Shown one piece after another: positions 30,155-53,002 of a stretch of DNA of 64,000 nt (within the stretch, counting starts at the first letter, position 1; each line of letters opens with the position of its first letter). The notes under the pieces were generated by a model. It was not told the origin of the DNA and did no database searches. It saw only the letters and a list, made by a program, of their open reading frames with translations. The translations under genes were made by a program, and so were the position numbers. This DNA is from Acidobacteriota bacterium (GTDB lineage Bacteria > Acidobacteriota > Blastocatellia > Pyrinomonadales > Pyrinomonadaceae): positions 1 to 64,000 of the forward strand of contig QHXI01000056.1 of the NCBI GenBank assembly GCA_003222895.1, read 5' to 3'.

Positions 30155-30297
30155 AGCGCCGCTAGGCGCGGAATATTTATAGCCCCGATAGCGACTCCTT
30201 TCAGAAGCGGTCAAGAACGAGAAGCTTCCCGCTCCTGACCGCCACACGATCTAAAAAGAGGAACGTTATTCTATAAATATTAGGCTCTTACGGAGCC
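30155..30297. repeat. AATATTT-ended dispersed element, copy 2
   Basis: The left end AGCGCCGCTAGGCGCGGAATATTTATAG and right end CTATAAATATTAGGCTCTTACGGAGCC are inverted. An imperfect central hairpin is anchored by GCGGTCA/TGACCGC. The right end overlaps the last codons and the stop of the giant cytochrome gene. Confidence 0.85.
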
Positions 30298-33200
30298 TTT
30301 CTGACCCTTGCCCTTCTCATGCCACCATAACTCGCCAATGCAAATAGGAATCCAACTAACAGACTTAACCAGACACGGGTTGCGCTCGCGCTCGTAAAGT
30401 TCCGCGGCTCGGTCAATGGATCATCGCTGACCGTAAAGTAGTCCCCTTTGCCTTCGTTCGTGCGCAGCATTCGCTGCACTTCGTCAAAGGTGAATGGACG
30501 AGCACCGCGGCGTCCGAAAACAGCGATTTGATTTCCACTTTCGTCGACTGCTCGATCGCGATCGAGAGCTTTCGAAACCGCCAGGGCTTCGCCTCTTGTT
30601 TTGTAAGTCGCGATCAATTGCGGTTGCGGTCGCGGACTGAAGCCGGCGTAAGTCGGCATCGTCTCGGGCGAAGTGAGTTGCAAAACGCGCAGGCCGTTCT
30701 TGCCGTCGGCGACGTAAGCAAACAGGCTCGCGTTCGTCATTGCGATCTTTACCTGGCGCGCATCATTCAGCGCACCCCCGGCGTTGTATGTCTGATCGAG
30801 ACAAGGGTTATTTGGCTGTGTGATATTGACAATTGCAATGCCATTTTTGCCGTCCGCGACGTAGGCATAAGTTCGCGCCACGTAAACATCGCGGGCGTCG
30901 GTTAACGGAAGATATACGCCCTCGAAACGAACTTGCTCAGGCGAACTCACGTCGACAGTCTTCAGTCCTTCATCGTCAACCACAAATCCATAGCGAAATT
31001 GGATCGCGATTGCGCGCGGGTGCTTGAATGCAAGACGATCGACGATCTTCGGATTCAACGGATCATTGAGACTTACAACCACTAACTCGCGCTCGGTTGT
31101 GATGTAGGCACTCGTTCCGGCAATCGTAATGTTGTTCGCGCCCGTCAACGCGCCGTCAGGATTGAACGCGCCATTCGGATATTTCGATTCGTTGAGTTGT
31201 CGCTTCAAATAATTATTTAGCGGATCGCCGTCGAGCAGCGTCGCCGCATTCACCACAATCAATCCTTCGTCCTTGTCGACGATGTAAAGATAAGCGTAGA
31301 GCGGATGAATCGGCTGCTCCTGATTCAGCAATTGCTCGGGCGGCAGTCTTCGCGCTTCATCGGGCGAAACCATTTTGGCGTCTGTAGTCATTCGCCAGCG
31401 CGCGGGATCGACTGCGAGCGTCGAAGGCGCTGCGACCGCCGTCGCGTATTTTGTCTTGACCCAGAACTGCTGCCCAAACCGCGAAACCGGCGCGCTGGTA
31501 ATACGTTCCGAAAATCCTTTTTGATCGATCTGTGCCACATCGTAAACACGGAGGCCGCCTTCACCCGCGGCGACGTATGCGTACTCGCCGCGCAGTTGAA
31601 CTTGTAAAGCCCTTGGATTTCCTTTGTGCTCATAAGCTTCACGCAATTGGCGATCGCCGTTTACGAATTTTTGATAGTCGCCTGGATAAGCGATCTTTTG
31701 CAGCGTGCTGCCGATGATCGCCTGCGGCTCTGATCGTTCAGTCGCAACGACAGCTTCGAGCGAATCGTTCGCCGCAACGTAAACATATCGTCCCATAAAG
31801 TTGACGAAGTTAGTTCCCTGCAGAAGCACCTGGGCCATCCACGCGTTATTGTTGTTGCTCTTGGACACGTGACAGTCGGTGCACGTCTTTGTTTCAGTCG
31901 CGCGCACCGTGTGCGGCACGTGCGTGTTGAAAGTTTGGCCGGAATAACCTTCAGCGGAAACCGTCTGCTGCTGCGAATAAATCCATTCGCGATTTTGATT
32001 TTGAGAACTCACCAGGACCGCGCTCGACGAGCGCACGGGTGCGATGCGATTGCCGGTGACTGTTCCATCGCGACCGAGCATGAACACATCGTCGCGCAGC
32101 ACCTGATAGTTGTAGGTCGTGAAGTTGCGGGAATCGCCGCCCTCGTTATGGCGGTTCGGCGTCTTGCGATTCGCCTGCATCGATAGGTGACAGCCGAAAC
32201 AGCTTGTCATCCATGACGAGTGACACGCGAAACACGTCATGTTCGAATCGCGATGCGCAAGCTGTTTGTCGTCCGCGGGCACGTTGCCCCACGTAGTCGC
32301 ATCGGTGCGCATCGTTTTCGCATAACGAGACTTCACGCTGTAGTCCTCCGCGTGCGGCGCATTCGGATTGATCGTGTCGGCGGTCTGCTTCACGCGCCAC
32401 CAACGGCCGGGCACGACCATCGAATTCTGAATGATGTCGCCGGCTTTCAACTGAATTTCGTTTCCGCTATCGTCTTTCTTCTTTCTATCAGTCGGAATTT
32501 TTTGGAACAGCAGCACGCGCCCACCTTCTGGATCGCGAAAACGAATCGCCGCGAGATTGCGGCCCGTACCTTCAACAATCTTCCCGTCTTTGACACCAAC
32601 ACCAGACGCGAAACCTGAGGTGACAAGCGTCGCGCGTTCACGAATCGTGCCGTGACAGTCGATACAACCGATTTCGATCGCCGCGCGCGGTTCGTTGTAG
32701 AGCATGCCGTTGCCGTGCGCGTCCTGCCGGAAATGGCAGTCGACGCAATGCATCCCCTTTTCTAGATGAATGTCGTTCAGATGGACCGTCTTCTTAAAGC
32801 GATCCGGATCGTCGGACGAAACGATCGCATTCTTCGCATCGAGCAAATTTCCTTCGCGATCTCGTTTGAAGACCTGCCGAAATAGCCAACCATGCCCGTG
32901 AAAATCGGCGAACTGGGTGCGCTTGAGTTGTGAATTGAATTCCGGCGTGCCGGTCTTGTTTAGAAAATCCGGTTCTGACCAAAGGCCGCGCAAACTCGCC
33001 GCTTCCGGATTGTTGTTGAGTTTTCGCTGTTCTTCAGACGGCGAAGGATCGTGTTGCTGCGCGGGGTACATCTTGTCGCCGTCGGTTTCGTTGTCCCACC
33101 ACGTCAGGCCCAGGTACGACGCGACCATGTTTTCGCCCGGATGCATGTGGCAGATCATGCACTGCGAAGTCGGAATGCGACTGGTAAGTTGATGCTTGAT

Positions 33201-34319
33201 CGGATGACCCGATTCGTTTTTCGGAATACTGGCGTCGTTTGATTGCGACATTCCCAGATTGCCGGCCGAACCGTAGAACGCCGAATGCCTGACATCTCGA
33301 TCATTCGCATAGACCACATGACAAGCCGTGCAACCCGACGATCGATAATCGCCCGGATGATCGTTCGTCCCGAGAAAATTCAGCGTCGGATCAAGCAGAC
33401 GCGTTTTCTGCAATCCGAGATAAACCGGATCAGTTCGTTGCGCCGTGCCGAGCCCGCGCGCACTCAGGCCTTTGTCAGGCTTGCCCGCGTCTTCATCTCT
33501 GTCGGGCAGCGCCGTTTCAAGCCGCCGCTTTCCGCCCCGCTCAAATACACGCAGGATGTTTCCCGGCTGCGAGATCTCCCAGCGTGGCAGCGGATCGATA
33601 AACGAAAGAATGCCTTTAAGTCTTCTTTGCTCATCGGTCGGTTGCGGAATCTGAATTAAGGTCTGCGGCGCGCCGCTCGCGTTATAGCTCTCGCCGAAAT
33701 TCGTGTCCTTGATCGGAAAACCGCCATTGTTGTAAAGCGCCGCACCCCAGAGCATCGCGCCATGCGTCATCATGCTGCGCGTCGCATTCGCTGTTTCGCT
33801 CGTGTGACATTCAGAGCTGCCGCACGTTTTGGTCGCGACGCGGAAATCGCCGGGATTGATGAAGCGAACAAATTCGTCGCTCTCGCGAGCGAGCAATGGC
33901 CCTGAGTTCTCGGGCACCCGAAACCTTCCGTCGCGCATCCACGCGCGCGGAAAGCGCGGCTGCACGTGCGCCTCTTCTTTGGTAGTGGTGACGGGATTGC
34001 CGCCATGACACGCCGTGCACGCCAAACCCAGGCCGTCTTTTCCGTTGTCGAGTTTGTCCAACGCGCCGGCCACGGTGGGACCATAGCGATGCATAGGCTC
34101 GATCTTGTCATGACACTTCAGACAGCCTTCGAGGGTTGGTGGTGTCGTCGGTTTCTGTTGCGCACGCGATGAAATAATGATCGCCACAGAGACGCCGAGG
34201 CACAGAGCCGGAACGAGAATCAGCCGCGGATGAACGCGGATAGACGCGGATAAGAACTCAGGCAAAATGCCAAAAAGCGATTTGATTTGTTTGTTCTTCA
34301 TCCGCGTGCATCCGCGCAA
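30288..34319 (-). CDS. Giant multiheme cytochrome c with LVIVD repeats and C-terminal membrane anchor
   Basis: The protein has 1,343 residues. Nine CxxCH sites (for example GCLKCH, ACTACH, QCMICH, GCIDCH, SCFGCH, TCTDCH) plus one CX4CH (CGSSECH) lie within about residues 60-800. From about 810 to 1250, seven or so LVIVD-type blades ([32 protein letters not shown]) suggest a beta-propeller. A single C-terminal helix ([20 protein letters not shown]) followed by basic residues is a probable membrane anchor. The N-terminus is odd: the start region and [11 protein letters not shown] are encoded by an inverted repeat (34222-34329). ATG 34301 is an equally possible start. It follows the beta-barrel gene by 15 bases. 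A role in electron transfer across the envelope is inferred. Confidence 0.88.
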
Positions 34320-34329
34320 ATCTGCGGCT
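34222..34329. repeat. Inverted repeat (GCGGATGAACGCGGAT type) at the start of the giant cytochrome gene
   Basis: AGCCGCGGATGAACGCGGATAGACGCGGAT (34222-34251) and ATCCGCGTGCATCCGCGCAAATCTGCGGCT (34300-34329) are nearly complementary. Both arms lie at the 5' end of the cytochrome gene: one covers its start codons and the other encodes part of its signal region. Confidence 0.8.
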
Positions 34330-34334
34330 AATTA

Positions 34335-36458
34335 TCAGAAAACAAACTTCACCTGTCCGAACAGGTTGAACAGCGGCTTGCTTGGGTTGATGTTGACGTT
34401 GTCAGGCGTGCAGAACTCTGCCAGGTTCGCCGGACAATCGGTGTTCGCAGTCGTATAAATGTCGCGAAAGCCCCGGCCCGGCTTCAAAGTCGCCGCGCCA
34501 AACGTCAACGTCAAGTTATTGATCAGCAGCGGCCGGTATGCGACGCCCAAACTCAAGTCCCAACCAATCTCGTGTCGAATATTCGGTTGAAATAAAATGT
34601 ATTCGAGCGGCTCAGTGCGATGAAACCGAAGATAGTTCACGTTGAAGACAGCCTTCAGACGTTGCGTAACTTCCACGTCGACGCCCGCGTTATAAATCAA
34701 AATTCCGGGATTGACGAAGTTCGCTTGCCCTTCGATCTTGCTGCTGCGAAGCGACGGCAGAATGCTGTTCGGCTGAACTAAACCGACGCCGGTCTGCGTC
34801 AAACGGATTCCGTTCCGACTCCAAAACGAAAATTGGCCGCCGACAAAATTTGGATCGTCGAAGATTGCATCGAAACCATTGGCCTGACTATCGGTCGGGT
34901 TCTTGTCGCCCTGAGCGAAGAAAAATGAGCCGCGGAATCGCAAGTAGTCGTGATCGATTGATGCTTCAACTGCGGCCATATTCGAGCTGACGTGAACCGG
35001 ACGTCCGGCAATTGGATTTCGATCGTCGCGGCCAAAGACATGGTAGTAGGAGTTCGTCAGATTCAAACGGCCAAGGTGTCCATCGCCATTGATTCCAAGG
35101 TAGCCAACTTTGATCGCGTGCGGCCGCACGTCGCCAATCAAAGCCGGCCGCACCAGGAATCCATTGCGATCAAACTTGCGGCTGCGGCGATCGTCGTTGT
35201 AAAGCGCGCTGGCCTGAATCGTGTAGCCCTTCTTAATAAAGTCCTGCCGAAAAATATTCGCAACGTAAACGTTCTGCGGTCGCCGATCGAAGCGATTCAG
35301 TCCGCTGTTGGTGTCCTTCTCGAGCTGCGCAAAGTAAGCCGCGTTGAATTGATAACGGTTATTATCAAATGAACCGAAGATGCGTGCGCCCAAGTTGTTA
35401 TCGGAAAAGATAAACCCGCGAAAGTCAGACACGAACGGCTGAATGCCAACCCGCGCCGACACGAAATCGAAGTTCTCGCTCACGTCAGTCAACTTCATCT
35501 CGGCAAAAGCTTCTTCAAAAGAAAACTGGGTATCGGTGCGATTTGTGCCGCGCCGCACATCGATGTTCACAACGCCCGTCTCACGCGCATTCAAATTGTT
35601 CGGCAGGCTGAACGTTGGTGAAATTTTGATGGCCCAATCGCGCGGCCGAAACGTCGAGTCGCCATGAAACAATTCGAACGTGAGCTGGAAAAGTTGATTG
35701 ACCGCGAGCGCTTCGGACTTTCCGAAAAACTCGGCGCTGCCCGGCCGCGCACTGCTGACATCGGAAGGTTTCGGCGTGCGGCTTAACTCGGCCGTAGTCG
35801 AACTCACCGCCGAAAGAACCATGAAAACCTTGTTGCCGATGATCGGATAATCGCCTTTCAGCCAGCTCTGATTGTACGGGTCGTACCAGCGTCCGCGGCG
35901 AAAAGGAATGTCGCGGCCGCGCGCGCCCTTGTCGCCGTATCGATCGTATTCGGGAAAGCCGATGCGCCAACGATCGCGCACTTCGCGTCGATCTGATTGC
36001 TTCTGAGGCTTTGACTGGACGCTCGTGTTTCCCGCAGCGCCGAGAGGTTTGCGCGCCGGCACGTTTGCGATTGGTTTCTCTTCGATCTTCTCAATCGCGA
36101 AAGCGATCTTCGTGTCTTTCCCGTCGCTGACGATGACGTTCTCGATCGAATCGTCGCGAATCAAAGCATGTTCGCCGTAGGGTCTTGTCTTATCGAATCT
36201 CGCCACGAAAGGCGGCGCGACGCTCAAGCGGTACGCGCCCGGACGAACTTTGATCGCGTACCTTCCCGAGCCGTCGGTTTCGGTGCGCGTAACTTTGCTG
36301 GTGACTTGATTGGCCGCGATGACGATGACATTCGCAGTCGCGGGAGTAATCGTCCCGGTAATCGCGCCGCGTTTTTGCCCGAATGCCGACGCCGAAATCA
36401 GCAACACAGCCGCGACCGCTATGAATCGTGCCACCGCATTCGGTTTGCGACCGATCAT
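34335..36458 (-). CDS. Outer-membrane beta-barrel protein with N-terminal carboxypeptidase-regulatory domain
   Basis: The protein has 707 residues from ATG 36458 (MIGRKPNAVARFIAVAAVLLISASAFGQ signal peptide); an ATG at 36512 adds a non-signal extension. Residues 30-105 resemble a carboxypeptidase regulatory domain (GAITGTITPATANVIVIAANQ ... YAIKVRPGAYRL). Residues 185-707 show alternating aromatic beta-strands and end in an aromatic residue (FNLFGQVKFVF), typical of outer-membrane barrels. There is no obvious TonB plug. It precedes the giant cytochrome gene on the same strand. Together they could form a porin-cytochrome conduit; this is inference. Confidence 0.8.
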   Translation of the reverse strand: MIGRKPNAVARFIAVAAVLLISASAFGQKRGAITGTITPATANVIVIAANQVTSKVTRTETDGSGRYAIKVRPGAYRLSVAPPFVARFDKTRPYGEHALIRDDSIENVIVSDGKDTKIAFAIEKIEEKPIANVPARKPLGAAGNTSVQSKPQKQSDRREVRDRWRIGFPEYDRYGDKGARGRDIPFRRGRWYDPYNQSWLKGDYPIIGNKVFMVLSAVSSTTAELSRTPKPSDVSSARPGSAEFFGKSEALAVNQLFQLTFELFHGDSTFRPRDWAIKISPTFSLPNNLNARETGVVNIDVRRGTNRTDTQFSFEEAFAEMKLTDVSENFDFVSARVGIQPFVSDFRGFIFSDNNLGARIFGSFDNNRYQFNAAYFAQLEKDTNSGLNRFDRRPQNVYVANIFRQDFIKKGYTIQASALYNDDRRSRKFDRNGFLVRPALIGDVRPHAIKVGYLGINGDGHLGRLNLTNSYYHVFGRDDRNPIAGRPVHVSSNMAAVEASIDHDYLRFRGSFFFAQGDKNPTDSQANGFDAIFDDPNFVGGQFSFWSRNGIRLTQTGVGLVQPNSILPSLRSSKIEGQANFVNPGILIYNAGVDVEVTQRLKAVFNVNYLRFHRTEPLEYILFQPNIRHEIGWDLSLGVAYRPLLINNLTLTFGAATLKPGRGFRDIYTTANTDCPANLAEFCTPDNVNINPSKPLFNLFGQVKFVF

Positions 36459-36614
36459 AAGAAGGAAAATTAATCGACGTTGACTTGTAGCATACGAGCG
36501 ATCCGCTATCAATCAAAATTTTCGCCAAGAAAATCGTTTCGCTTGCCGGTGATTAATGATAGATTTTCAAATCCTCCGGACTTTCAGTTGCGAACACGCA
36601 GTCGTGGCACGTCG

Positions 36615-38768
36615 ATGACAGCCAAAGCATCCGTCAGGCGCGGGCACCTCGTTCTAGCATTGTCGGTATCCATAGCTGCGCTCGTCGTTGCTTCTGCGCT
36701 CACGCGCAGCCACGCACAAGCGACCAAACTGGTTTTGATCAGCCAGGAAACATCGACGCGCGCGATCGCGGCTGATTCAGTGACCCTGAAGCGTGAGCCG
36801 TTCCAAACAACTTCAGAAGTGACCTGGGGCAATGACGCCCGCACGCGCGTGATGTTGTTCGCGATGGGACTGGCTCGCGACGCGTCGCCAGCGGACATCA
36901 GCGCCACGGCCGAAGATGGATCGCATAAGCAGTATCCGTTAACAGTTGAATACGTCGGCCCGGTGCCTGAGCAGGATTGGGCCACGGCAGTGGTCGTGCG
37001 CCTCAACGATCAGATGGGCGATCTCGGCGACGTGCTGATCGGTATCAGTTATCAAGGATCGAATTCCAATCGAGTCCGTGTCGGCATTGGTCATGTTGGC
37101 GATGGACCGCCGGACGACAAAGGAGCAGTGCCGACGCCGGGAACAATTTCACCTTCTCTGGCGCCGGCCGCAACCGCCGGGACGCTGACCACCAGCGACG
37201 TGCAGACGATCATTGCGCAGGCAGTTTCCGCGGCGGCATCAATTAACCGCGCCGTGACGGTCGCCGTCACCGACAAAGAAGGAAATGCGTTGGGCGTGTT
37301 TCGTATGACCGGCGCGCCGGCGACGACACAACTTCGTGGCGGTGGACCAGGACCAACCCTGGCGCCGAATCCGATTACAGGATTTGTCGCGACAGGTTTG
37401 GACGGCAGCGTTGTGCCGGCAAAGGTCGCCGCAATTTCGAAAGCCGGCACGGCGGCTTTGTTCAGCACCCGGGGCAATGCGTTCACGTCACGCACGGCCG
37501 GCTTCATCATCCAGGAACATTTTCCGCCCGGCGTTGATTTCAGATCTGGCGGCCCGCTTTACGGAGTCCAGTTCTCTTCCTTGCCATGTTCGGACATCAA
37601 GACCCCGGGCTTGCCGCTCGGACTCAGCGGCGATCCGGGCAGCGCTCCGATTTACAAAAACGGTGAAGCTGTCGGCGGCGTGGGCATCGAAGGCGACGGC
37701 GCCTACACGGTCGATCGCGATCCGACAGATTTCGATCAACCGTTCGAAGAAGTGATCGCCGTTTCGGCGACGAGAAGTTTCGAGGCGCCTTCGTTGATTC
37801 GCGGGGACAACATTCTGGTCGATGGAATTCGACTGGCTTATCTAAACGTCACGAACGCGCCGGTGCCAGCGACGATCGCGTTTGGAAGTTTACCGGGCGC
37901 GGTCGATCCTTTGTTTCCAATTCGCGCCGCGCAACTTTCGGAATTCACACCGGCGATTGTCGGCGGCATCGCCGGCGAAGTCGACACAAGATTCTTCCCG
38001 TTCGCCGGCAGTCCCACGGTGACTGCGAATTCGTTGACGGCTGCCGACGTCAACACGATCATTTCGCACGCGGCGCAACAAGCCAACATCACGCGGGCCG
38101 CAATTCGCCAGCCGCTCGGCAGCAATGCGCGCGTCTCGATCGCGGTCGTCGATACGAACGGAGTCGTGCTCGGCATATTTCGTCAACAGGATGCGCCAGT
38201 GTTTGGATTCGACGTTTCGGTTCAGAAAGCTCGCACGGCGGCGTTCTATTCAAGCGGCAACGCCGGTGCTTTGCTGCGCGGCGCCGGCTTTGGATCGTAT
38301 GTCGATCGCGCGTCGGCAGATGGTTTGAAACTTGATGGTTCAGTTGCATTCACGGATCGCGCGGGAGGATTTCTGCATCGACCTTTCTTCCCTGACGGCA
38401 TCAACAACAGCGCCGCCGGACCATTCAGTCGCGAGCTTAACGAGTGGAGTGTCTTCAACGTAGGTCTGCAATTGGATCTAATCAAGACCAATCTGCAGAC
38501 GGTTCTGAGCGGCGGCGCGGCACCCTGCACGTCGATTCCGAATCTGCCAAATGGCATTCAGATTTTTCCCGGCAGCGTGCCGTTATATAAAAACGGCGTG
38601 CTGGTTGGCGCGATTGGCATCAGCGGTGACGGAGTCGATCAGGACGATCTGATTGCTGCCGGAGGAGGCGCAGGTTTCGCGCCGCCAGTGAACATTCGCT
38701 CAGATCAAGTCCTGGTGCGCGGCGTGCGGCTGCCGTTTCTGAAGTTTCCACGCAGCCCCAATTTGTAG
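36615..38768 (+). CDS. Exported protein with two HbpS/GlcG-type (heme-binding) domains
   Basis: The protein has 717 residues from ATG 36615 (MTAKASVRRGHLVLALSVSIAALVVASALTRSHAQA). Two copies of the HbpS/GlcG fold are visible. Copy 1 runs from TTSDVQTIIAQAVSAAASI to GVGIEGDGAYTVD, and copy 2 from TAADVNTIISHAAQQANI to GAIGISGDGVDQDD. Both have the family signatures VAVTDKEGNALGVFRM / IAVVDTNGVVLGIFRQ and IYKNG or LYKNG. HbpS-type proteins bind heme in the envelope. The first about 150 residues are a separate beta domain of unknown role. Next to five cytochromes, heme handling is plausible. Confidence 0.85.
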   Translation: MTAKASVRRGHLVLALSVSIAALVVASALTRSHAQATKLVLISQETSTRAIAADSVTLKREPFQTTSEVTWGNDARTRVMLFAMGLARDASPADISATAEDGSHKQYPLTVEYVGPVPEQDWATAVVVRLNDQMGDLGDVLIGISYQGSNSNRVRVGIGHVGDGPPDDKGAVPTPGTISPSLAPAATAGTLTTSDVQTIIAQAVSAAASINRAVTVAVTDKEGNALGVFRMTGAPATTQLRGGGPGPTLAPNPITGFVATGLDGSVVPAKVAAISKAGTAALFSTRGNAFTSRTAGFIIQEHFPPGVDFRSGGPLYGVQFSSLPCSDIKTPGLPLGLSGDPGSAPIYKNGEAVGGVGIEGDGAYTVDRDPTDFDQPFEEVIAVSATRSFEAPSLIRGDNILVDGIRLAYLNVTNAPVPATIAFGSLPGAVDPLFPIRAAQLSEFTPAIVGGIAGEVDTRFFPFAGSPTVTANSLTAADVNTIISHAAQQANITRAAIRQPLGSNARVSIAVVDTNGVVLGIFRQQDAPVFGFDVSVQKARTAAFYSSGNAGALLRGAGFGSYVDRASADGLKLDGSVAFTDRAGGFLHRPFFPDGINNSAAGPFSRELNEWSVFNVGLQLDLIKTNLQTVLSGGAAPCTSIPNLPNGIQIFPGSVPLYKNGVLVGAIGISGDGVDQDDLIAAGGGAGFAPPVNIRSDQVLVRGVRLPFLKFPRSPNL

Positions 38769-38771: not shown

Positions 38772-39557
38772 GTGATTACACGAGTCATCTTCGCTTTAGT
38801 CTGTTGCCTGCTGGCTGTCTCTTTCTCTTTGGTCGCGCACACGCAAACTCCCCAAGCCGCGCGCGGCGTCATTCGTTTGAAAGTCAAATACAAATCGAGC
38901 GAAGTCACCAAAGAGTTGCCGCGCAAGCGATTCTTTCTGATTAATGGCTCGATCGATCAAAACAAATCGTTAGTCGAACAAATCAAACAGACACCGCTAA
39001 TGTCGCGCGAGTGTTATTACCGGAACCACGGCGCAAGTGACGCGCTGATCAAGTGGCTGAACGAAAATGATTGTGAATCGGTTTATTGCCGCGCCATCGA
39101 AGAAAAGTACACCGGAGGCCGCGAAGCCGTGCCGGAATTCAAGGCGGCGTACGATCAAGCGCTGGGCGAATTGAAGGCGCCGGCGATTGCGCGGCGATGG
39201 CTGCCGAATTATCTCGCGCCTGAGATTCGCGATGGTTTCTACACCGCGAAGCAGCAAACGATTTCGAATTTGGTGAAGCAGGCCGAGACCGCGACCGGGA
39301 AACCCGTGATGTCGATCATGACGGATCGCAAAGGGACTGCTTATCTGACTGACATCGATCCAGGCGTCTATACGATCTCAAATCTGGTCGGAAGCGAAAC
39401 TAACAAGAGCAGCATTTTGTGGGTATGCGAACGCGAAGTGAAAGCGACGGACCTGACGATCGCGATGAAGCGGCCGTTCATCTTGTCGAACGAAAAAGAT
39501 CCGAAGGTGAAGTGCGAAGTGATTGAACGGCCCTTGCCGGTTTGTGGTGCTAGATAA
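38772..39557 (+). CDS. Exported protein of unknown family, partner of the HbpS-like gene
   Basis: The protein has 261 residues with a GTG start at 38772, 3 bases after the HbpS-like stop. The signal peptide is MITRVIFALVCCLLAVSFSLVAHTQ. The mature part has several cysteines (SRECYYRNHG; NDCESVYCRAIEEKY; VCEREVK) and a C-terminal region with a carboxypeptidase-regulatory-like phrase (RKGTAYLTDIDPGVYTISNL). There is no CxxCH heme site. I do not recognise the family. Tight spacing implies it works with the HbpS-like protein. Confidence 0.7.
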   Translation: MITRVIFALVCCLLAVSFSLVAHTQTPQAARGVIRLKVKYKSSEVTKELPRKRFFLINGSIDQNKSLVEQIKQTPLMSRECYYRNHGASDALIKWLNENDCESVYCRAIEEKYTGGREAVPEFKAAYDQALGELKAPAIARRWLPNYLAPEIRDGFYTAKQQTISNLVKQAETATGKPVMSIMTDRKGTAYLTDIDPGVYTISNLVGSETNKSSILWVCEREVKATDLTIAMKRPFILSNEKDPKVKCEVIERPLPVCGAR

Positions 39558-39571: not shown

Positions 39572-39720
39572 ACCCGCGTAGCGGCGGAATATTTATAGTA
39601 CCGCCGCCAGGAGATAAATTCTCAGCTCCTTTTAGGAGCGAAATCCACATTGCGCCCATAAATGGGCTATGAAAACTCATTTCGTGAACTGGAGCTATAA
39701 ATATTTCGCGCCTACAGCGC
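39572..39720. repeat. AATATTT-ended dispersed element, copy 3
   Basis: The left end ACCCGCGTAGCGGCGGAATATTTATAG and right end CTATAAATATTTCGCGCCTACAGCGC are inverted. Small internal palindromes include GCTCCTTTTAGGAGC. The right end contains the only available ATG of the first nonaheme cytochrome gene and encodes its first about 17 residues. Confidence 0.85.
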
Positions 39721-40805
39721 TTTGCAAAACAAGATTTGTCGGCGCGTGCTGGCTCGTTACAGTAATGCTCTCGTGCCACTTCGGAATGTCGAGCGAGGCT
39801 GGCGCCCAGACTCGCCGTCGCCCAGGCACTACGCGACCTGCGCCGCAAGCGCAAGCGCCCCGCCGATCCACCATAAAGTATTCTGCCTTTCTTCATTCAT
39901 CGGACAAGCACAAGAGCCTTCAATGCAATGCTTGTCACAGGATTCCGACTGCGTGGAATGCGAAGCGCACATTTCCCGACGTCGCCGATTTTCCGGATCA
40001 CGACGCGTGTGTGCGCTGTCATCGTTCGCAATTCTTTTCCGGACAAGCGATGATCGGAACGGGTCCGGCGATTTGTACGGTGTGTCACGTACGCGCCGCG
40101 CCGCGTGAAGACGCCCGGTTTGCGTTTGGCCGGCCTAACAATTCGGACCAGCAAGTGAAGCCAAAAGACGAACGCCAGTTCGCGATCGAATTTCCGCACG
40201 ACAAACATCAGAACGCGATCGCGTCCACTTCGAGCGTTCGATTCGTCGTCGCATCTTTCACCGGACCGGTGGACGATCAGGCGCCCGATTACAACAACTG
40301 CTCGATCTGTCATCAACCAAACAAAACGCTCGCGATCGCACCCCTGCCAATATCGTCGCCCGATCCGGCTATGCTCTATCCATTCAAGTCGATGCCGCAC
40401 AGCCACGACGCGTGCTTTGACTGTCATTGGAAAAATCTGAAGCCAACGAGCGACGACTGTGGCGGCTGTCACAAAGCTTCGGCGACGTTCATTGCAGTTC
40501 TAGCTCCGAAGCGTATCTCTGCAAAGTTCGCGCACGCAGGGGGCAAAGGCGGGCACGTCATGGAATGCACGACTTGCCACATCAACATCACGCGCGCGAG
40601 CACGTTGCGGGGACTGACGCCTGATGTGCCCATTGCGGCGTGCACGACCTGTCACAAAGACAGCAAGAAGACGACGTATCCGAAAGCTATGACGATTGAA
40701 GAAGAATTTGCACAGAACAAGAAGACCGGCGAGTGCACTTACTGTCACACGGCCGAAGTTGGCAAGAAAAGGCCGCCGCCGAGTCATGAAACGGCGGCAC
40801 AGTAG
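39669..40805 (+). CDS. Exported nonaheme cytochrome c (c3-like), paralog 1
   Basis: The protein has 378 residues. Nine CxxCH sites are present: CNACH, CVRCH, CTVCH, CSICH, CFDCH, CGGCH, CTTCH, CTTCH and CTYCH. Several extra His (HDKH, HSHDAC) could be distal ligands. A hydrophobic segment (VGACWLVTVMLSCHFGMSSEAGA) acts as a signal peptide. The residues before it come from repeat copy 3, and no other in-frame start lies between 39669 and 39765. The first heme region (YSAFLHSSDKHKSLQCNACH) matches that of the next gene (YSKFLHTSSKHASIGCNECH), so the two are tandem paralogs. Probable periplasmic electron carrier. Confidence 0.88.
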   Translation: MKTHFVNWSYKYFAPTALCKTRFVGACWLVTVMLSCHFGMSSEAGAQTRRRPGTTRPAPQAQAPRRSTIKYSAFLHSSDKHKSLQCNACHRIPTAWNAKRTFPDVADFPDHDACVRCHRSQFFSGQAMIGTGPAICTVCHVRAAPREDARFAFGRPNNSDQQVKPKDERQFAIEFPHDKHQNAIASTSSVRFVVASFTGPVDDQAPDYNNCSICHQPNKTLAIAPLPISSPDPAMLYPFKSMPHSHDACFDCHWKNLKPTSDDCGGCHKASATFIAVLAPKRISAKFAHAGGKGGHVMECTTCHINITRASTLRGLTPDVPIAACTTCHKDSKKTTYPKAMTIEEEFAQNKKTGECTYCHTAEVGKKRPPPSHETAAQ

Positions 40806-40810
40806 AAGCA

Positions 40811-40852
40811 GAGGTCAGAGGTCAGAGGTCAGAGGTCAGAGGTCAGAGGTCA
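40811..40852. repeat. 7-bp tandem repeat, six copies of GAGGTCA
   Basis: Six perfect copies of GAGGTCA lie between the two nonaheme cytochrome genes, ending 15 bases before the second start. The variable copy number of such arrays could alter the spacing or the leader of the downstream gene. Confidence 0.95.
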
Positions 40853-40867
40853 GAAAAGTAAGAGCAG

Positions 40868-41674
40868 ATGATCGTTCGCGCAACATTTTTGATTTTGTTT
40901 TCTTTCGCGTTGCTCAGTTTCGTCTACGCGCAGGGCAACGATCAGGATTACTCGAAATTCCTGCATACAAGTTCCAAGCACGCGTCGATAGGATGCAACG
41001 AATGTCATCGTCGTAATGACAACTCATCCCGACCGAGTTTCCCAGGTCACAAGTCATGCACGGGTTGTCACCTTACGCAATTCACGACGCCTATACTGCC
41101 GATGTGCTCGATCTGTCATCAGAGCGTCAACGGGAACGATCCGCCGCGCAAAGCTTTCCCGGACAAATTCAAAGAGAGCTTCAACCTGAAGTTCGATCAT
41201 GCGCAGCACATGACGGCGGCCGCGCGACCGAAGAACGGATGCGTCGCTTGTCACAGCTCGCCTTTGCGTCGCGGGGCGGCGTTGTCGATCCCAAACGGAA
41301 TGGGCGCGCACGATGGTTGTTACTCTTGCCATACGCCGAACGCTACTTCGAACGGGCGCGACCTCGCCTCGTGCGGTGTCTGTCATGCGACAAAGTCGTA
41401 CGCGCGCACTCAGACCGACTCGCCTGCGTACCGCATCGGGTTCAATCATGCCGAGCACGGCACACGACAGCGACTAAACTGTTCTGATTGCCACAACTAC
41501 ACCGTGGGCTTGCCGCAGCGGCGCCAGGTTAGTTCGCCGCGCGCGCAGGAACATTTCCCGAGCGGCAACAATTCATGCGCAACTTGTCATAACGGCCGAA
41601 GATCCTTCGGTGGCGATTTGGATTTCAAGGCGTGCCGGCGATGTCATGAGGGAGCGAGCTTTCGCACGAGTTGA
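40868..41674 (+). CDS. Exported nonaheme cytochrome c (c3-like), paralog 2
   Basis: The protein has 268 residues with a signal peptide (MIVRATFLILFSFALLSFVYAQ). Nine CxxCH sites are present: CNECH, CTGCH, CSICH, CVACH, CYSCH, CGVCH, CSDCH, CATCH and CRRCH, about one heme per 28 residues. The spacing and the phrases FDHAQH and FNHAEH resemble cytochrome c3/c7-type packing, in which paired His ligands coordinate each heme. It is shorter than its upstream paralog. It probably passes electrons in the periplasm between membrane and outer-membrane partners. Confidence 0.9.
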   Translation: MIVRATFLILFSFALLSFVYAQGNDQDYSKFLHTSSKHASIGCNECHRRNDNSSRPSFPGHKSCTGCHLTQFTTPILPMCSICHQSVNGNDPPRKAFPDKFKESFNLKFDHAQHMTAAARPKNGCVACHSSPLRRGAALSIPNGMGAHDGCYSCHTPNATSNGRDLASCGVCHATKSYARTQTDSPAYRIGFNHAEHGTRQRLNCSDCHNYTVGLPQRRQVSSPRAQEHFPSGNNSCATCHNGRRSFGGDLDFKACRRCHEGASFRTS

Positions 41675-41835
41675 TTAACCACCGAGGACACAGAGAAGAA
41701 CAAATCGCCAAGTGGTAAGTGCAAAGAGCCAAGTCGAATTGTCCCCGTTGAAGTCATCTGGCGCGTTCGCACTTGCTCCTTGCCCTCAGCGCTTGGCCCT
41801 TTGCTCGTGTTTCCTCTGTGTCCTTTGTGGTTAAT
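41674..41835. repeat. Long-hairpin dispersed element (accACCGAGGACACAGAG type)
   Basis: ATTAACCACCGAGGACACAGAG is matched by TTCCTCTGTGTCCTTTGTGGTTAAT on the right. A nested inner pair (GCAAAGAGCCAAG / CTTGGCCCTTTGC) lies inside. It begins at the stop of the second nonaheme gene. Relatives lie at 42486, 47835, 52916, 57184 and, for the inner part, 59203. Confidence 0.85.
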
Positions 41836-41905
41836 CTTATTGACAGAGCGGCAAGCGTCTCCCTAACATGCGACGCAACATTGAGACGAGAATGGGGAGG
41901 GTGAG

Positions 41906-42478
41906 ATGAAGCGAGTTCCGATCGGACTAATCGTTGGTTTATTCGCCGTGGCGTTGTTAGTTCTGACCACTGGCGCGCGCACGCCGGTGCCGCAGCAGAT
42001 TCCCAAAGAAAGCAAAGACCAGCCGACCAAAGTAAAGCTCGATACGGACAGCCTGGACGACAAATGGGGCGAAGTCGCCTTCGATCACGAAACTCACTCA
42101 GTCAAGAAATACAATCCCGACGGCGCGGGCGTCACAGCCTGCACGTTCTGTCATCACACCGATCAGCCGAAAGAAAATCTCAAGCCGCCAAGAACTACGT
42201 CAGAGCGCAACGTCGTGCTAACCGCCGATGTCTTGAAGGACGCGGCCGCCACGCCGGTCAAGACCTGCCGCCAGTGTCACCTGCAAGCCGGCGACGACAG
42301 CAAGCAACTTCCGGTGATTACGAAAGACGGAAAGGAGGTAAAGATGGATAACGAGAACGCATATCACATCAACTGCTTTGAGTGTCATGACGCTGCGATC
42401 AAAGCGAAGCCCGAATTGGCTCAGAAGATTTCCGGATCAGATCCGAAGGGCTGTGGGAAGTGTCACGTTGCGAAGTAA
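41906..42478 (+). CDS. Exported tetraheme cytochrome c3-like protein
   Basis: The protein has 190 residues. ATG 41906 is preceded by GGGGAGGG. The signal peptide is MKRVPIGLIVGLFAVALLVLTTGA. Four CxxCH sites are present: CTFCH followed by H (CHHTD), CRQCH, CFECH and CGKCH at the C-terminus. FDHETHS before the first site supplies probable distal His ligands, as in class III cytochromes c. Small tetraheme proteins of this type shuttle electrons in the periplasm. It closes the plus-strand cytochrome run and is convergent with the heptaheme gene. Confidence 0.9.
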   Translation: MKRVPIGLIVGLFAVALLVLTTGARTPVPQQIPKESKDQPTKVKLDTDSLDDKWGEVAFDHETHSVKKYNPDGAGVTACTFCHHTDQPKENLKPPRTTSERNVVLTADVLKDAAATPVKTCRQCHLQAGDDSKQLPVITKDGKEVKMDNENAYHINCFECHDAAIKAKPELAQKISGSDPKGCGKCHVAK

Positions 42479-42485: not shown

Positions 42486-42725
42486 ATCCACAGATTACGC
42501 AGATTACCCAGACAAGAAAAAATCAGGGCAAAACGTTGGTCGCGAATTGACCACCAAGACACAAAGAATACTAAGTCGGCAACTCGAAATGAGTTCGCTT
42601 TACTTTCTAAAATCTCCTTTGTGTCCTTTGTGACTTTGTGGTGAGTGTTTTGGAGTGATTGCAGTTGCGAACAATACTTAGCACACTGTCATTTCCTATC
42701 TGTGTAATCTGCGTAATCTGTGGAT
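42486..42725. repeat. Nested double hairpin element between convergent cytochrome genes
   Basis: The outer arms ATCCACAGATTACGCAGATTA and its complement at 42704-42725 enclose a second pair (GACCACCAAGACACAAAG / CTTTGTGACTTTGTGGTG). The right outer arm overlaps the heptaheme gene and encodes its last residues (STDYADYTDRK). Confidence 0.85.
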
Positions 42726-43630
42726 AGGAGTCCCGGATTCCAGTGCCGCTTGTCCTGCAAGTGTTGCACGTGACATGAAGTGCAGTTCGGTTTGTCGGAC
42801 GCAATCACCTGTCCGCCCGCGCGCGCATCCACTTGACCGTTATGACACTTGCCGCAGGTTGTTCGCGGCGTCCTGAGATCGATCGGATCGCGCGTGGCAT
42901 GGCAACTCGAACAACTCAGCTCGCCTTCTTTGTTTCCCGGCAAACCTCCGACAGCACGAACTCGATAAAGATGGACCGCGTGAAATTGTTTGCTGCGCCA
43001 TTGATCTTCCGTGTCGCTCGGTAAGCGTTCCAGCTTCAAAGTATCTTTGCGCACAGACATCTCGTCGGCGTCTAACCCCGCCCACTTCCAATGTCCGTTC
43101 ACGACTGGATAACCAAACGTGCCGCCGTGCGGAGTCGCAACACTCTTGCCGTTGTAAAATTTCTTGTTCCGATCGTTGTGGCATTCGAAGCAAGACAACA
43201 ACGCGCCATCGATCGCATTGAACTGTGAACCGCGATGTTCGGCATGACAATCGATGCAACCGATGCCGGCGCTCACGTGCGGCTTGATCACCGTCGCCTT
43301 AAACGCGTCAGTGGTATGGCACGATGAACATTGCTTCTCCATGTTCGTGCTCCATGCGTGACATGACGTACACGACCCGGCATTTGCGTGATTCGCGATG
43401 GGAGGTTTCAGATTCATGCTCGCGCGCTCGTGCGCATCCGAGATTGGCGCGGGCGCGAACGCTCGCGCATAAATCAGCGCGCCGCCGATAGACAGTAATA
43501 CGACGGGAATCACTCCCCACAAGAGCATCGAGGCTGGCCAGCGTCTGCGCAGATCAGTTGTCGGCGACCAGACGGATTGCGCTTTGCCGCTCGGCCTGCC
43601 AGTCAAAGGAAACAGCGGCGAAGGCTTCAC
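42689..43630 (-). CDS. Membrane-anchored heptaheme cytochrome c
   Basis: The protein has 313 residues. An N-terminal cytoplasmic stretch of about 33 residues is followed by one membrane helix (SMLLWGVIPVVLLSIGGALIYA), used as an uncleaved anchor. Seven CxxCH sites are present: CTSCH, CSSCH, CIDCH, CFECH, CSSCH, CGKCH and CTSCH. It starts inside the FHA gene stop (4-bp overlap), so the two are translationally coupled. As an anchored cytochrome it may take electrons from the ferredoxin/membrane protein of the same operon. Its final residues are repeat-derived. Confidence 0.9.
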   Translation of the reverse strand: MKPSPLFPLTGRPSGKAQSVWSPTTDLRRRWPASMLLWGVIPVVLLSIGGALIYARAFAPAPISDAHERASMNLKPPIANHANAGSCTSCHAWSTNMEKQCSSCHTTDAFKATVIKPHVSAGIGCIDCHAEHRGSQFNAIDGALLSCFECHNDRNKKFYNGKSVATPHGGTFGYPVVNGHWKWAGLDADEMSVRKDTLKLERLPSDTEDQWRSKQFHAVHLYRVRAVGGLPGNKEGELSCSSCHATRDPIDLRTPRTTCGKCHNGQVDARAGGQVIASDKPNCTSCHVQHLQDKRHWNPGLLSTDYADYTDRK

Positions 43631-44079
43631 CGTTTTCGTAGCCGCGGTGATTCGCTTGTCCCAAAAAACGTCGAGAGCCTTCGAGCTTGCGTCAGCCGGT
43701 TTCGGTTTGCGCGAGAGCGCTTTCTTCTTGTGTCCGGCGGTTTCTGCAGGAGCGGCTGCAGCGAAACTTTGATCGTCAATGAGCCTTGCGCAAACGTGAC
43801 GTTGAGCGCGAATGGGCCAATCCCGAGCACGTCCCCATCGGCGAGCGCTTCGTACTCTTCCAGTTTTGTTGCGTTCAGCAGAATCGGATTGCCCGGGCGC
43901 AAGTTGCGAACATAGTACTCGCCGTCGGCGTAGGTAACGCCGGCATGAAGACGAGAAACTGATGGATGATTTAGCAGCAGTTCACAAGTCGGCAGCCGAC
44001 CGATGAGCACACCTTCGGCGACGATCGTCACCGGATCGACCTGCAAGTCTTCGCGGACGATGATGAAGGTTGCTTCCAT
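43627..44079 (-). CDS. FHA-domain protein
   Basis: The protein has 150 residues from ATG 44079; upstream in-frame codons come from a repeat. Residues 5-95 form a forkhead-associated domain with the conserved GRLPTCELLLNHPSVSRLHAGV and YYVRNLRPGNPILLN. This is the fold that binds phosphothreonine. The tail (about 100-150) is basic (RRKRSRANRNRLTQARR). FHA proteins usually read Ser/Thr-kinase signalling. It sits between a cyclic-nucleotide/ferredoxin fusion and a heptaheme cytochrome in one operon, which points to regulation or assembly of a redox complex. Confidence 0.9.
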   Translation of the reverse strand: MEATFIIVREDLQVDPVTIVAEGVLIGRLPTCELLLNHPSVSRLHAGVTYADGEYYVRNLRPGNPILLNATKLEEYEALADGDVLGIGPFALNVTFAQGSLTIKVSLQPLLQKPPDTRRKRSRANRNRLTQARRLSTFFGTSESPRLRKR

Positions 44080-44081
44080 TC

Positions 44082-44184
44082 GAGCGCAGGCATCCTGCGT
44101 GCGGTGCGCAGGCATCCTGCCTGCAATCTTGTTTTAGAACGGCGAGCAAGATGCTCGCGGACCGCACGCAGGATGCGTGCGCTC
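44082..44184. repeat. Inverted-repeat element (GCATCCTGCGTGCG type) inside the redox operon
   Basis: GAGCGCAGGCATCCTGCGTGCGGT is matched by ACCGCACGCAGGATGCGTGCGCTC, with a second GCAGGCATCCTGCCTGC palindrome within. It fills the whole gap between the cyclic-nucleotide/ferredoxin gene and the FHA gene. As RNA it would form a stable hairpin between two cistrons. Confidence 0.9.
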
Positions 44185-46647
44185 CTATCTGACGTTGAAA
44201 AAAACGACTTGCACAATATGCACGACCATCAGCGCCAGCATCACGCACGTAGCTATCACGTGCCGCGCAATCCAAATCTTCAGCAGTCGATGAAGATAAA
44301 TTAGCGCATCGACGCGACGCAGCATCGCGAATCGTTCGATCGCTCTTAACAACAGATTTCGCTGTTCTTTGTCATTCGTAGCGACCATCTCGTTCTTAAA
44401 ATAAAATCGGGCTTTCGCGAGCGCAGCCGTCAACTCTTCGCGTCGCAAGTATTCCTTCATCAAATAGCCAATCGAGGAGAAATATCGCCGCACCTTGTTT
44501 TCGATCAACTGGCGCGTAACTTCGTTGGCCTTGCTCTCGATCGATGAGAGCTCATTACGCAATTCGGCGCGGCGGCCTTCGAGGTCTTCGATCAGCAGCG
44601 GATCGCCTTCGATACTGGTCATGATGCGCGGCACAATCAGGTAACAGAAAACTCCAAACAATCCGGTGAGAATCGTGGCGTCAAACCAGAGCATCAGGAT
44701 CAGCGTCAGCAATCCGCCGCCGTGACTGCCGCCATGAAACAGCAAAGCGATGCCGGCCAGGACACCGAAGTAAACATGCGCGAGCAGCCAGTAACGCAAC
44801 GCTCCGGCGCGCCGGCGATAGATTGTTTTGCGCACCGGATACGTCATCACTGCGGCGATGCCGGCGAGTCCCACCAAGCCTGTCAACCAGCGCAACGTCA
44901 GCCAGACTCCGCGCAGCGGCTGATTGAATCCGTAATGCATCGCGGCCCACGCGATCAGCATCGTCACTGCCAACGTTCCCGCGATTCCGCCGATGTGCCA
45001 GAGCCGCGCGACCGGATCGCTCTGGTGGATATTGCGGCCGATCGCGTGCGTCTGATCGCGAAACACCAGGCCCAGCGTCTTGTCGATCTCATCAAAATAT
45101 TCATGAGGATTGACGCGAACGAGCGCGCCCGTGGGGCAATTCTCTTCACATGAGTAGGCCGGACGTTTCGCACCGTTCGGATTCAGCGGTGTGTTTTCGC
45201 AGAGGTTGCACTTGATCGCGATCATGTCGTCTGCTTCAGCGATGGGCGCGGGTTCAGGAGCTTTGAGACTAAAAACTCTCTTGAGTCGGGTGAGTGGAGT
45301 GGTTCGCGCCGGCGGTGGCGGATTGCGCGGCACCATCGAGATCGCGTTATAAGGACATTGCGTCGCGCAATCGAAACATCCGATGCACGTCGGCGGATCG
45401 ATGTCGACGTGGCCTCTTGGATCGCGAAAGATCGCGCCCGTCGGACAGCCCGTCAGGCATTCAGGATCTTTGCAGTGCATGCAGACCGAAGGCGACAACA
45501 CATGTTGAGTGTTCGCGCTGTCGGGCTTCACCGGACGCTCGATGTGAATTCCGCGGCGCAGTAGTCGCGACTGTCCATGGACTTTGTGGCAGGCGAGCGA
45601 GCAGTTGCCGCAACGCACGCACAAGTCCATGTCCATCACCAGCAGATTGACGCCGTCAACGATTCCGGTCGCGATTTCTTTTTCCGCGGCGGCTCGGACA
45701 CTCTTGTCTGTCAGAGCTTCAACGCGCGTGTCGTCATCTGCGAGTGAGAAGTTCGCGAAGGCTTTGCCCACTCGTTCGCACAACGCCGGATCTGCATGCA
45801 ACGCGGTCAACGGAATCTCGAGCACTTCGCTCCGCGCCATCAACTCAGCCGAGTACTGCCATGTCGCTTGTCCCTTTAACGCTTCAAGACCGAGACAATT
45901 TCCCGCGCCCAGGAAATCTTCCGGAATCAAACTGCTGGAGGCTGCCCCTGCGCCTTCGGTCACTTCTTTGTAGATGGGCACGCCGCGCACGCGGCGCAAC
46001 CAGCCGCTGCGAATCAGAACAATTTTGTCGATTTGGGTGCCTTCCTTGACCAAAAGATGATGCTTTCCATAAGCGAGAAAGTGGGCGAGGTTACCAACGG
46101 CAACTAGATCGACTGGAGTTAAGGCATCGCCGGCGGCCTCCTGAAGTTCGCCGATCGTGTGTGCTAATCCGTGACCGCGATAGGTGTCGTCAACTTTTTC
46201 GGCAAACTTTTTCAGTGACCGCAGCAGACGCAGCGCCGGCCGCACCATCTCGATCACGTTTGCTTCGCGACCGTTGTCGGAGCACATGATCGTGGCGTTG
46301 CGCGGCACGCCGGCGAGAATCGACATCTCGCCAAAACACGTTCCGGGCGGGAGTACACCGACTTTTCTTTTCTTACCGGAATCGTCATCGCTGGCAAACA
46401 CCTCCAACTCAGCATCCAGCGAAAAATAAAACGTGTTGCCGCCCCAATCGCCTTCACGCATCACTACTTCGCGGGGCGCGTAGGTAAGCAGGCGCGCATA
46501 CGGACCAATTTGTTTGCCGCCGGCTTCTTTGCCTTCGGCGATCATCTTCAGGTTGTTTTTGTTTTTGTCTTCGAGCAGTTCAGAGAGAACATCGATCTTC
46601 TTGATCGCTTCGAGAATCGCTTCGGGAATCGTGCTCACTCTCGGCAT
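44185..46647 (-). CDS. Fusion: two cyclic-nucleotide-binding domains, four-cluster ferredoxin, multispan membrane domain
   Basis: The protein has 820 residues from ATG 46647 (MPRVSTIPEAILEAI); earlier codons to 46746 are repeat-derived. The first cNMP domain (about 35-150) has a good phosphate cassette (FGEMSILAGVPRNAT). The second (about 185-300) is degenerate. Residues 335-530 hold four Cys clusters: CVRCGNCSLAC, CMHCKDPECLTGCP, CIGCFDCATQCP, and CNLC with a later SCEENCP, as in DmsB/HybA-type electron-transfer subunits. About five membrane helices follow, with His in or near several (RLWHIGG, AHVYFG, FHGGSHGG, VVHIVQVV), possibly binding heme b. It appears to be a cNMP-responsive electron-transfer protein of the inner membrane. 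I know no characterised protein with this order. Confidence 0.85.
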   Translation of the reverse strand: MPRVSTIPEAILEAIKKIDVLSELLEDKNKNNLKMIAEGKEAGGKQIGPYARLLTYAPREVVMREGDWGGNTFYFSLDAELEVFASDDDSGKKRKVGVLPPGTCFGEMSILAGVPRNATIMCSDNGREANVIEMVRPALRLLRSLKKFAEKVDDTYRGHGLAHTIGELQEAAGDALTPVDLVAVGNLAHFLAYGKHHLLVKEGTQIDKIVLIRSGWLRRVRGVPIYKEVTEGAGAASSSLIPEDFLGAGNCLGLEALKGQATWQYSAELMARSEVLEIPLTALHADPALCERVGKAFANFSLADDDTRVEALTDKSVRAAAEKEIATGIVDGVNLLVMDMDLCVRCGNCSLACHKVHGQSRLLRRGIHIERPVKPDSANTQHVLSPSVCMHCKDPECLTGCPTGAIFRDPRGHVDIDPPTCIGCFDCATQCPYNAISMVPRNPPPPARTTPLTRLKRVFSLKAPEPAPIAEADDMIAIKCNLCENTPLNPNGAKRPAYSCEENCPTGALVRVNPHEYFDEIDKTLGLVFRDQTHAIGRNIHQSDPVARLWHIGGIAGTLAVTMLIAWAAMHYGFNQPLRGVWLTLRWLTGLVGLAGIAAVMTYPVRKTIYRRRAGALRYWLLAHVYFGVLAGIALLFHGGSHGGGLLTLILMLWFDATILTGLFGVFCYLIVPRIMTSIEGDPLLIEDLEGRRAELRNELSSIESKANEVTRQLIENKVRRYFSSIGYLMKEYLRREELTAALAKARFYFKNEMVATNDKEQRNLLLRAIERFAMLRRVDALIYLHRLLKIWIARHVIATCVMLALMVVHIVQVVFFNVR

Positions 46648-46914
46648 GATGGCGAAAGGATCCCGTGTGTATGGTTCCACGATCGGGATCGGTGTCAGAA
46701 GCCCGCACGTAAGCAAGGGCTCGTTGCGACACAAGCGGCAGCGCAAACTCTAAGTGCGCCTCGGGACAGTCGCGCAGCTTAGCATCGATTTGCGACTGAG
46801 GGAATCCACATTCCGCGAGTTGTACTAACCAAAACATAACAGTGGTTGGCCGAGGCGAGACGTGATAGCATCCGCGTGCCTGGTGAACCCAACACATCGT
46901 AATAATAGGCGGCA

Positions 46915-47811
46915 ATGCTAGAGCCCCTGCAAATGCGTGCCCCTTCAAAACGCTGGTTAGCGCTGGCGAGCATCATTTTTGTTTCCACCGCATCGCTCGC
47001 CTGGGGTTTCACGCGACTACGCCGCATCGCGAACGTTGAAGGGGCACCCGCCTTAAAACGAGGGGCGGGAGTCGGAGGCCGGGGGTCGGAATCATCTTCG
47101 TCATCGGATCGAACTTCCCGAACGCAGTTAATTGATTCGGATAACGACGGCATTCCTGACGTTATCGAGTTGCACACCTATCAGGATCGCGACAGCTTCC
47201 GGCGGTGGTTCACCGCGATTGCCGAAACCGAATTTTATCAACTGAGCGATCAGTGGAACGCTGAGCAACGGGATTGCGCCGGGCTGGCGCGCTTTTCGAT
47301 TCGCGAAGCGCTGCGCCATCACGATCGCGCATGGTTTCAAAAAATGGGGCCGGGTTATGAAACCGTCGCGCCGGACGTTGGCGAGTTGGATCTCGATCAC
47401 AACCCGCTCGGCGAGAAGATATTTCGCACTGATTTTGGATCGTTCGACGAAAGTGATTTGCGTAATGGCCGATTCAGCGAGTTCGCTGACGGCCGATCGC
47501 TCAAGAATTTCAACAGCGTATTCGTAACTCGTGATCGACGCGAAGCTCAACCCGGCGACTTGCTTTTCTTTTATCAGCCGTGGGTCCAAAAGTTTCCCTA
47601 TCACGTGATGGTTTTTCTGGGGTCGGCGCACATCGCGTCAAACGGCGCCAACGATTGGGTCGTCTATCACACCGGTTCGTCGCCAAACGACAAAGGCACG
47701 GTGAAGAAGGTCGAGCTGTCCGTGCTCGATCATCATCCCGATCCGCGTTGGCGGCCCGTTGAAAGCAACAAGAATTTTCTGGGGTTTTATCGATTGAAGA
47801 TTTTGCAGTGA
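46915..47811 (+). CDS. DUF1175-family exported protein (NlpC/P60-like)
   Basis: The protein has 298 residues with an N-terminal anchor or signal (RWLALASIIFVSTASLAWGF). Residues 75-298 match DUF1175 (YfaT-like). Cys121 in RDCAGLARFSIREAL and a His in YHVMVFLGSAHIASNGAND fit a papain-like NlpC/P60 peptidase or amidase site. DUF1175 genes lie beside alpha-2-macroglobulin genes in proteobacteria, as here (the next gene). ATG 46933 is an alternative start. Confidence 0.85.
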   Translation: MLEPLQMRAPSKRWLALASIIFVSTASLAWGFTRLRRIANVEGAPALKRGAGVGGRGSESSSSSDRTSRTQLIDSDNDGIPDVIELHTYQDRDSFRRWFTAIAETEFYQLSDQWNAEQRDCAGLARFSIREALRHHDRAWFQKMGPGYETVAPDVGELDLDHNPLGEKIFRTDFGSFDESDLRNGRFSEFADGRSLKNFNSVFVTRDRREAQPGDLLFFYQPWVQKFPYHVMVFLGSAHIASNGANDWVVYHTGSSPNDKGTVKKVELSVLDHHPDPRWRPVESNKNFLGFYRLKILQ

Positions 47812-47834
47812 GGTTTCGTGCTCCAAATGAGATT

Positions 47835-47910: not shown

Positions 47911-47949
47911 GAGTTCTTAATCAAGCGACCTCTTTCGAGGGTAAAAATC

Positions 47950-52993: not shown

Positions 52994-53002
52994 ATTCCTT
53001 CA

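Follow-up and report, generated by a model that had tools for sequence, protein, structure and literature searches.

A 2026 paper on cave MAGs (PMC13264449) describes, in the accessible part of its account, 11 clusters, termed group 1, in which a 4–5 kb decaheme gene lies beside a porin of about 20 strands. The nearest studied analogue of the locus reported here is the Geobacter ext cluster, where loss of extI lowers selenite and tellurite reduction (PMC5877670), and where partial reduction of Mn and Fe oxides remains in a strain that retains extHIJKL alone among the conduit clusters (PMC6148476). In freshwater Verrucomicrobia, a novel porin unrelated to MtrB, with at least 20 predicted strands, sits beside multiheme cytochromes and has been proposed to serve extracellular electron transfer (PMC5615132). 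Among cultured acidobacteria, some Acidicapsa and Acidobacterium reduce ferric iron (PMC8790237). Our literature search returned nothing on LVIVD with multiheme cytochromes, nor on alginate export with multiheme cytochromes; as judged by title and abstract, none of the papers that mention both LVIVD and cytochrome concerned multiheme porin systems. To our knowledge, the mechanism of ferric iron reduction in Acidobacteriota is unsettled.

The DNA analysed, here called the window, is a stretch of 64,000 nucleotides from an Acidobacteriota bacterium (Table 1). Two minus-strand ORFs separated by 15 bases, a barrel gene just upstream of a giant cytochrome gene, were confirmed as given in the first-pass annotation; the gap is 33 bases if the in-frame ATGs at 34301 and 36458, the second being the end coordinate of the first-pass annotation, are the starts. 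The cytochrome gene is 4.03 kb long and its ORF has 1343 codons' worth of protein (1343 aa), with the in-frame ATG giving MKNKQIK... as the N-terminus. The ten heme sites claimed for it were found as nine CX2CH motifs and one CX4CH motif (aa 166), compared with a mean expectation of 0.008 CXXCH in shuffled sequence. The predicted LVIVD-type propeller also held: PF08309 matched with E 5.6e-18 (64.4 bits against a Pfam cut-off of 20.2), and the propeller of the structural model superposes on seven-bladed structures with Z up to 29.6. Besides the propeller, the whole model (pLDDT 77, pTM 0.80) comprises a heme region that is helical and an insert rich in beta structure. Its top structural matches were propellers throughout, so that none was obtained for the heme region, for which Pfam gave only sub-threshold c7/c3 matches. 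A single-sequence search of solved structures gave no useful match for either the cytochrome or the barrel. The 5′ end of the cytochrome ORF and its surroundings (34225–34326) hold four copies of an ATCCGCG heptad-type element, where shuffling predicts 0.62. Across the genome the element gave 31 matches and its reversed control 0. It resembles a dispersed repeat that is translated within the cytochrome N-terminus.

Table 1. Features of the barrel–cytochrome locus and its neighbours in the window.
Feature	Position	Strand	Basis or remark
Decaheme LVIVD-propeller cytochrome	30288..34319	(-)	ORF, ten heme motifs, Pfam LVIVD, orthologues
C-terminal hydrophobic helix, aa ~1310-1334	30318..30392	(-)	Followed by Arg-rich tail; not conserved in family
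Seven-bladed propeller of LVIVD repeats, aa ~843-1254	30558..31793	(-)	Pfam and model
Ten-heme region, aa 66-817	31869..34124	(-)	Beta-rich insert between hemes 7 and 8; model and profile match
Outer-membrane barrel protein, 725 aa	34335..36512	(-)	ORF, orthologues, fold; likely ATG start at 36458
18 transmembrane strands, AlgE/OprD-like	34341..35828	(-)	Model and structural matches
Conserved loop 7 of barrel, 70 residues	34704..34913	(-)	Extracellular side, from porin topology
Barrel N-terminal beta-sandwich (CarboxypepD_reg-like), putatively periplasmic	36087..36368	(-)	Pfam, model
HbpS-like protein, hydrophobic N-terminus	36480..38768	(+)	Divergent from pair
261-aa protein	38772..39557	(+)	Matches no known family; conserved in 8 related loci
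Nine-heme c7/MtrC-domain-like cytochrome	39669..40805	(+)	
Nine-heme c7-type cytochrome	40868..41674	(+)	
Tetraheme c3-type cytochrome	41906..42478	(+)	Similar to heme domain fused to L096 barrel
Seven-heme c3-type cytochrome	42689..43630	(-)	N-terminal hydrophobic segment
FHA-domain protein	43627..44115	(-)	
853-aa inner-membrane protein	44185..46746	(-)	cNMP-binding and 4Fe-4S domains plus membrane part

The barrel protein was modelled (pLDDT 85, pTM 0.74) as an N-terminal beta-sandwich followed by 18 strands, with the long loop placed after strand 13. Its best structural match was AlgE (Foldseek E 9.3e-15, TMt 0.65; VIA Z 28.9 over 361 residues, rmsd 3.0, 12% identity), with OprD/Occ porins next at Z 23–27. 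In Pfam, the CarboxypepD_reg-like match at the N-terminus was the only family match of the ORF. Of the 63 barrel members, 8 matched Alginate_exp (PF13372) with E values of 1 or less, the best being 5.4e-9; the barrel of the window was not among them. An MtrB/PioB barrel was rejected, PF11854 being absent at E<0.1 from the window barrel, from the 25 families shown for the 63 members, and genome-wide; an MtrB-type large barrel was rejected on the predicted strand number, 18 and not 26. A plugged TonB-dependent receptor, which had been named at the outset as the finding that would count against a conduit, was rejected too: no plug or TonB receptor match was shown, and the model has a beta-sandwich N-domain with 18 strands, not 22, so the conduit idea survived this check.

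With the outside and inside of the barrel assigned from porin topology, the loops predicted to face outward match the strands in conservation (for example, two short loops score 0.92 and 0.89 and the long one 0.73, compared with 0.47–0.71 among the strands). Porin loops are not usually conserved to this degree, which suggests either a conserved partner or a constriction of the pore. The barrel also occurs in natural fusions with a tetraheme c-type domain, which stands at the N-terminus in the place of the beta-sandwich (L094, 5665–8013; L096, 7448–9739); in some other members the beta-sandwich was not detected. The heme domain of the L096 barrel resembles the tetraheme cytochrome of the window (blastp E 1.9e-14), a kind of score that heme motifs inflate.

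Relatives were found by scanning genome contigs with an alignment of 22 cytochromes, which yielded 508 encoded relatives. The best 80 of these 508, whose loci were examined, span Blastocatellia, Terriglobia/Bryobacterales, Vicinamibacteria, Planctomycetota, Verrucomicrobiota and Rokubacteria bins and include one from the cultured Granulicella aggregans (L113). Seven of the 80 have no upstream DNA and were left out of the linkage count; in all 73 others a barrel homologue was observed next to the cytochrome, so the second finding that would have spoken against a conduit, cytochromes that never neighbour a barrel, did not materialise. A strict same-strand gap test is passed by 66 of these pairs; in six more the ORFs overlap or are broken but the arrangement is unchanged, and the remaining pair (L134) is divergent. 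Among 60 near relatives, strong cytochrome matches and strong barrel matches came from the same genomes, except for G008, whose cytochrome begins at a contig end, and none of these genomes had a strong barrel match without the cytochrome. Pairwise distances of barrel and cytochrome were correlated (r = 0.846, with 0 of 2000 permutations as high), a value to which shared species history contributes. The same arrangement is kept by a paralogous pair at 50% identity (L146). Ten heme motifs are present in all complete members, and the propeller is likewise conserved. In a draw of Acidobacteriota the cytochrome was present in 20 of 199 genomes, so the distribution is patchy, and the Planctomycetota sequences are scattered in several places among acidobacterial ones. 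A cytochrome filed under a Bordetella parapertussis MAG (L114) is nested among Bryobacterales/Terriglobia and probably comes from a mislabelled bin. A distant 11-heme relative (L145, 4445–7348; E 1.7e-71) has no barrel beside it.

The genes on the far side of the barrel would provide a route from the inner membrane to the periplasm. The membrane part of the 853-aa protein contains two H-X13-H pairs (H657/H671 and H829/H843), both invariant across 12 sequences of this part; in cytochrome b and ferric-reductase-type proteins, paired b-heme ligands are spaced in this way. Tested alone, in L135, the membrane part matched no Pfam or NCBIfam family; going by its histidine pattern, it is probably a di-heme cytochrome b. 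Of 48 long loci, 18 encode a homologue of the 853-aa protein. The window gene is a fusion, the cNMP-binding, 4Fe-4S and di-heme-b-type membrane domains being separate genes at other loci. The HbpS-like protein, the sole one in the genome, has a homologue in 29 of the 48 long loci; it is large, with repeated HbpS domains, and tied to the pair, and a part in heme handling can be raised as a question. No polysaccharide genes were seen in the cluster. Beyond it, at 46915–57188, a DUF1175 protein, a bacterial alpha-2-macroglobulin and a penicillin-binding transpeptidase with a SpoIID domain are encoded close together.

We propose that the pair forms the outer-membrane end of a trans-envelope electron-transfer chain, conduit-like and unrelated in sequence to MtrAB, and consider the chances for and against this evenly balanced. 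Genes, domains and linkage were observed directly, and the folds come from prediction. In the route that we infer, with its direction of flow, physical complex, localisation and acceptor, electrons from a cytoplasmic or quinone donor would enter the Fe-S/di-heme-b inner-membrane protein (44185–46746) and pass to the membrane-anchored c3-type cytochrome (42689–43630), from there to the small periplasmic multiheme cytochromes (39669–42478), and on to the decaheme-propeller cytochrome held at the AlgE-like barrel. This cytochrome would then reduce an acceptor outside the cell, or one admitted through the barrel. In the favoured form of the model, docking of the cytochrome on the barrel would let electrons arrive at the cell surface, and the propeller would serve for docking or for binding a substrate. 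Twelve free histidines, beyond the ten of the motifs, are conserved in at least 97% of the 63 cytochrome members; with these to draw on, bis-His ligation would be possible for each of the ten hemes, which is compatible with an all-bis-His wire.

The conduit-like reading is favoured because of the linkage, the barrel–tetraheme fusions and the conserved outer loops. The porin–cytochrome conduit of the first-pass annotation is retained as far as the conserved adjacency goes, whereas a decaheme inserted in the manner of MtrAB is doubtful: the MtrB barrel has 26 strands, and one of 18 strands is much narrower and seems to lack the room for a folded decaheme in MtrB style. Also counted against a conduit are that no separate outer-surface cytochrome was identified, that L145 lacks a barrel, and that so few of the Acidobacteriota genomes drawn carry the system. 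Furthermore, heme-copper oxidase genes are present, so respiration of oxygen is probable in this organism and the chain may have an auxiliary role.

The narrowness of the barrel favours a channel that serves an enzyme, as does the distant likeness of the cytochrome to nitrite and selenite/tellurite cytochromes. In this alternative, the barrel imports a small anion or organic compound, which is then reduced or oxidised by the decaheme-propeller protein on the periplasmic side, and electrons do not cross the outer membrane; we think this possible but rather doubtful. The fold is that of substrate-specific 18-strand porins, as the AlgE and OprD/Occ matches indicate. In a profile search of solved structures the heme region matched octaheme nitrite reductase (E 2e-6) over two short collinear stretches, at hemes 1–2 and 6–7, and the heme core gave weak profile matches to NrfA/NrfB. 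ExtM of the selenite/tellurite operon (NF040943 in NCBIfam) was matched at 61.9 bits by the window protein and 83.2 bits by that of Granulicella, far under the cut-off of 800, and Geobacter extI mutants are deficient in selenite and tellurite reduction, with ExtI discussed as a possible channel (PMC5877670). However, the cytochrome contains no CXXCK site, the catalytic heme site of NrfA and octaheme nitrite reductase, and the conserved histidines suffice to ligate every heme on both sides. The barrel–tetraheme fusions, moreover, suggest that electrons are delivered at the barrel itself.

The membrane anchors of the cytochrome bear on where it is held. The C-terminal hydrophobic helix noted earlier is present, with RRARVRK directly after it, but it is specific to a lineage, occurring only within part of the Blastocatellia, and most relatives lack it. 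Several Planctomycetota and Vicinamibacteria cytochromes have instead a lipobox-like N-terminus, which points to membrane anchoring of these members. The anchor thus appears to vary by lineage, and the helix, not being conserved, cannot decide the topology. Such differing anchors (lipid or C-terminal helix) would suit a barrel that acts as a dedicated export or display partner and brings the cytochrome to the surface, where they would hold it. The AlgE-like fold is that of an exporter, and the propeller weakly matches choice-of-anchor B proteins. Still, we consider display by the barrel improbable. No secretion partner is linked to the pair, and although the genome has an exosortase, sorting through the C-terminal helix was not supported, as the cytochrome is not among the four PEP-CTERM matches in the genome. 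We know of no 18-strand porin that passes folded proteins. The first-pass annotation remarked that the helix would keep the cytochrome at the inner membrane; that it is such a protein and only shares an operon with an unrelated porin is very improbable: the helix and Arg-rich tail are compatible with a tail anchor in the window lineage, whereas the helix is missing in most relatives and the barrel linkage is universal.

Returning to the pair as the outer-membrane end of an electron-transfer chain, it may be a largely unstudied way of exchanging electrons with the outside. We tentatively suggest, while thinking it somewhat more apt to fail than to hold, that the AlgE-type barrel, decaheme-propeller cytochrome and HbpS-like partner, fed by the Fe-S/di-heme-b protein, constitute an undefined cross-phylum system of outer-membrane electron exchange. 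If so, the AlgE-barrel/decaheme-propeller system could be the main extracellular or outer-membrane electron route in many Acidobacteriota and their relatives. As the pair is linked wherever this could be checked and is carried by cultured G. aggregans, the question can be tested in an isolate. Should the 18-strand barrel support electron exchange, the notion that conduits require wide barrels of the MtrB type would be incomplete; should it not, the pair would represent a new class of channel-coupled redox protein of the outer envelope.

Compared with AlgE and OprD/Occ porins, the window barrel shares the 18-strand fold, but its gene is tied to that of a decaheme cytochrome. Octaheme nitrite reductase and NrfA differ from the window cytochrome, which has ten hemes, a propeller and a dedicated barrel. 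With the MtrCAB and Pcc systems of Shewanella and Geobacter, the locus has in common adjacent barrel and multiheme genes, ten hemes, and periplasmic or inner-membrane feeder cytochromes. It differs in its AlgE-like barrel without an MtrB_PioB match and in the LVIVD propeller of its cytochrome, which is about four times the size of MtrA. The Geobacter extHIJKLMNOPQS cluster likewise combines a non-MtrB porin and multiheme cytochromes with Fe-S and b-type inner-membrane partners. Here, however, no rhodanese or ExtKL-like gene was identified, the remote match to ExtM, a 12-heme protein, covers part of the window protein, and ExtI and the window barrel are likened by description. The 4.03-kb ten-heme gene with its 18-strand barrel fits the description of the ghost-rock group 1 PCC, and these clusters, matched by description only, are most likely of the same family. 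The earlier statement that no known conduit has an LVIVD propeller must accordingly be read beside these large decaheme–porin pairs; the accessible part of that account mentions neither a propeller nor a structure, and it offers no definition of a family and no conserved inner-membrane module (PMC13264449). In the freshwater Verrucomicrobia, finally, the cytochrome adjacent to the porin is described as periplasmic and with eight hemes (PMC5615132), whereas the family described here, which includes Verrucomicrobiota members (L139 and L141), has ten together with the propeller.
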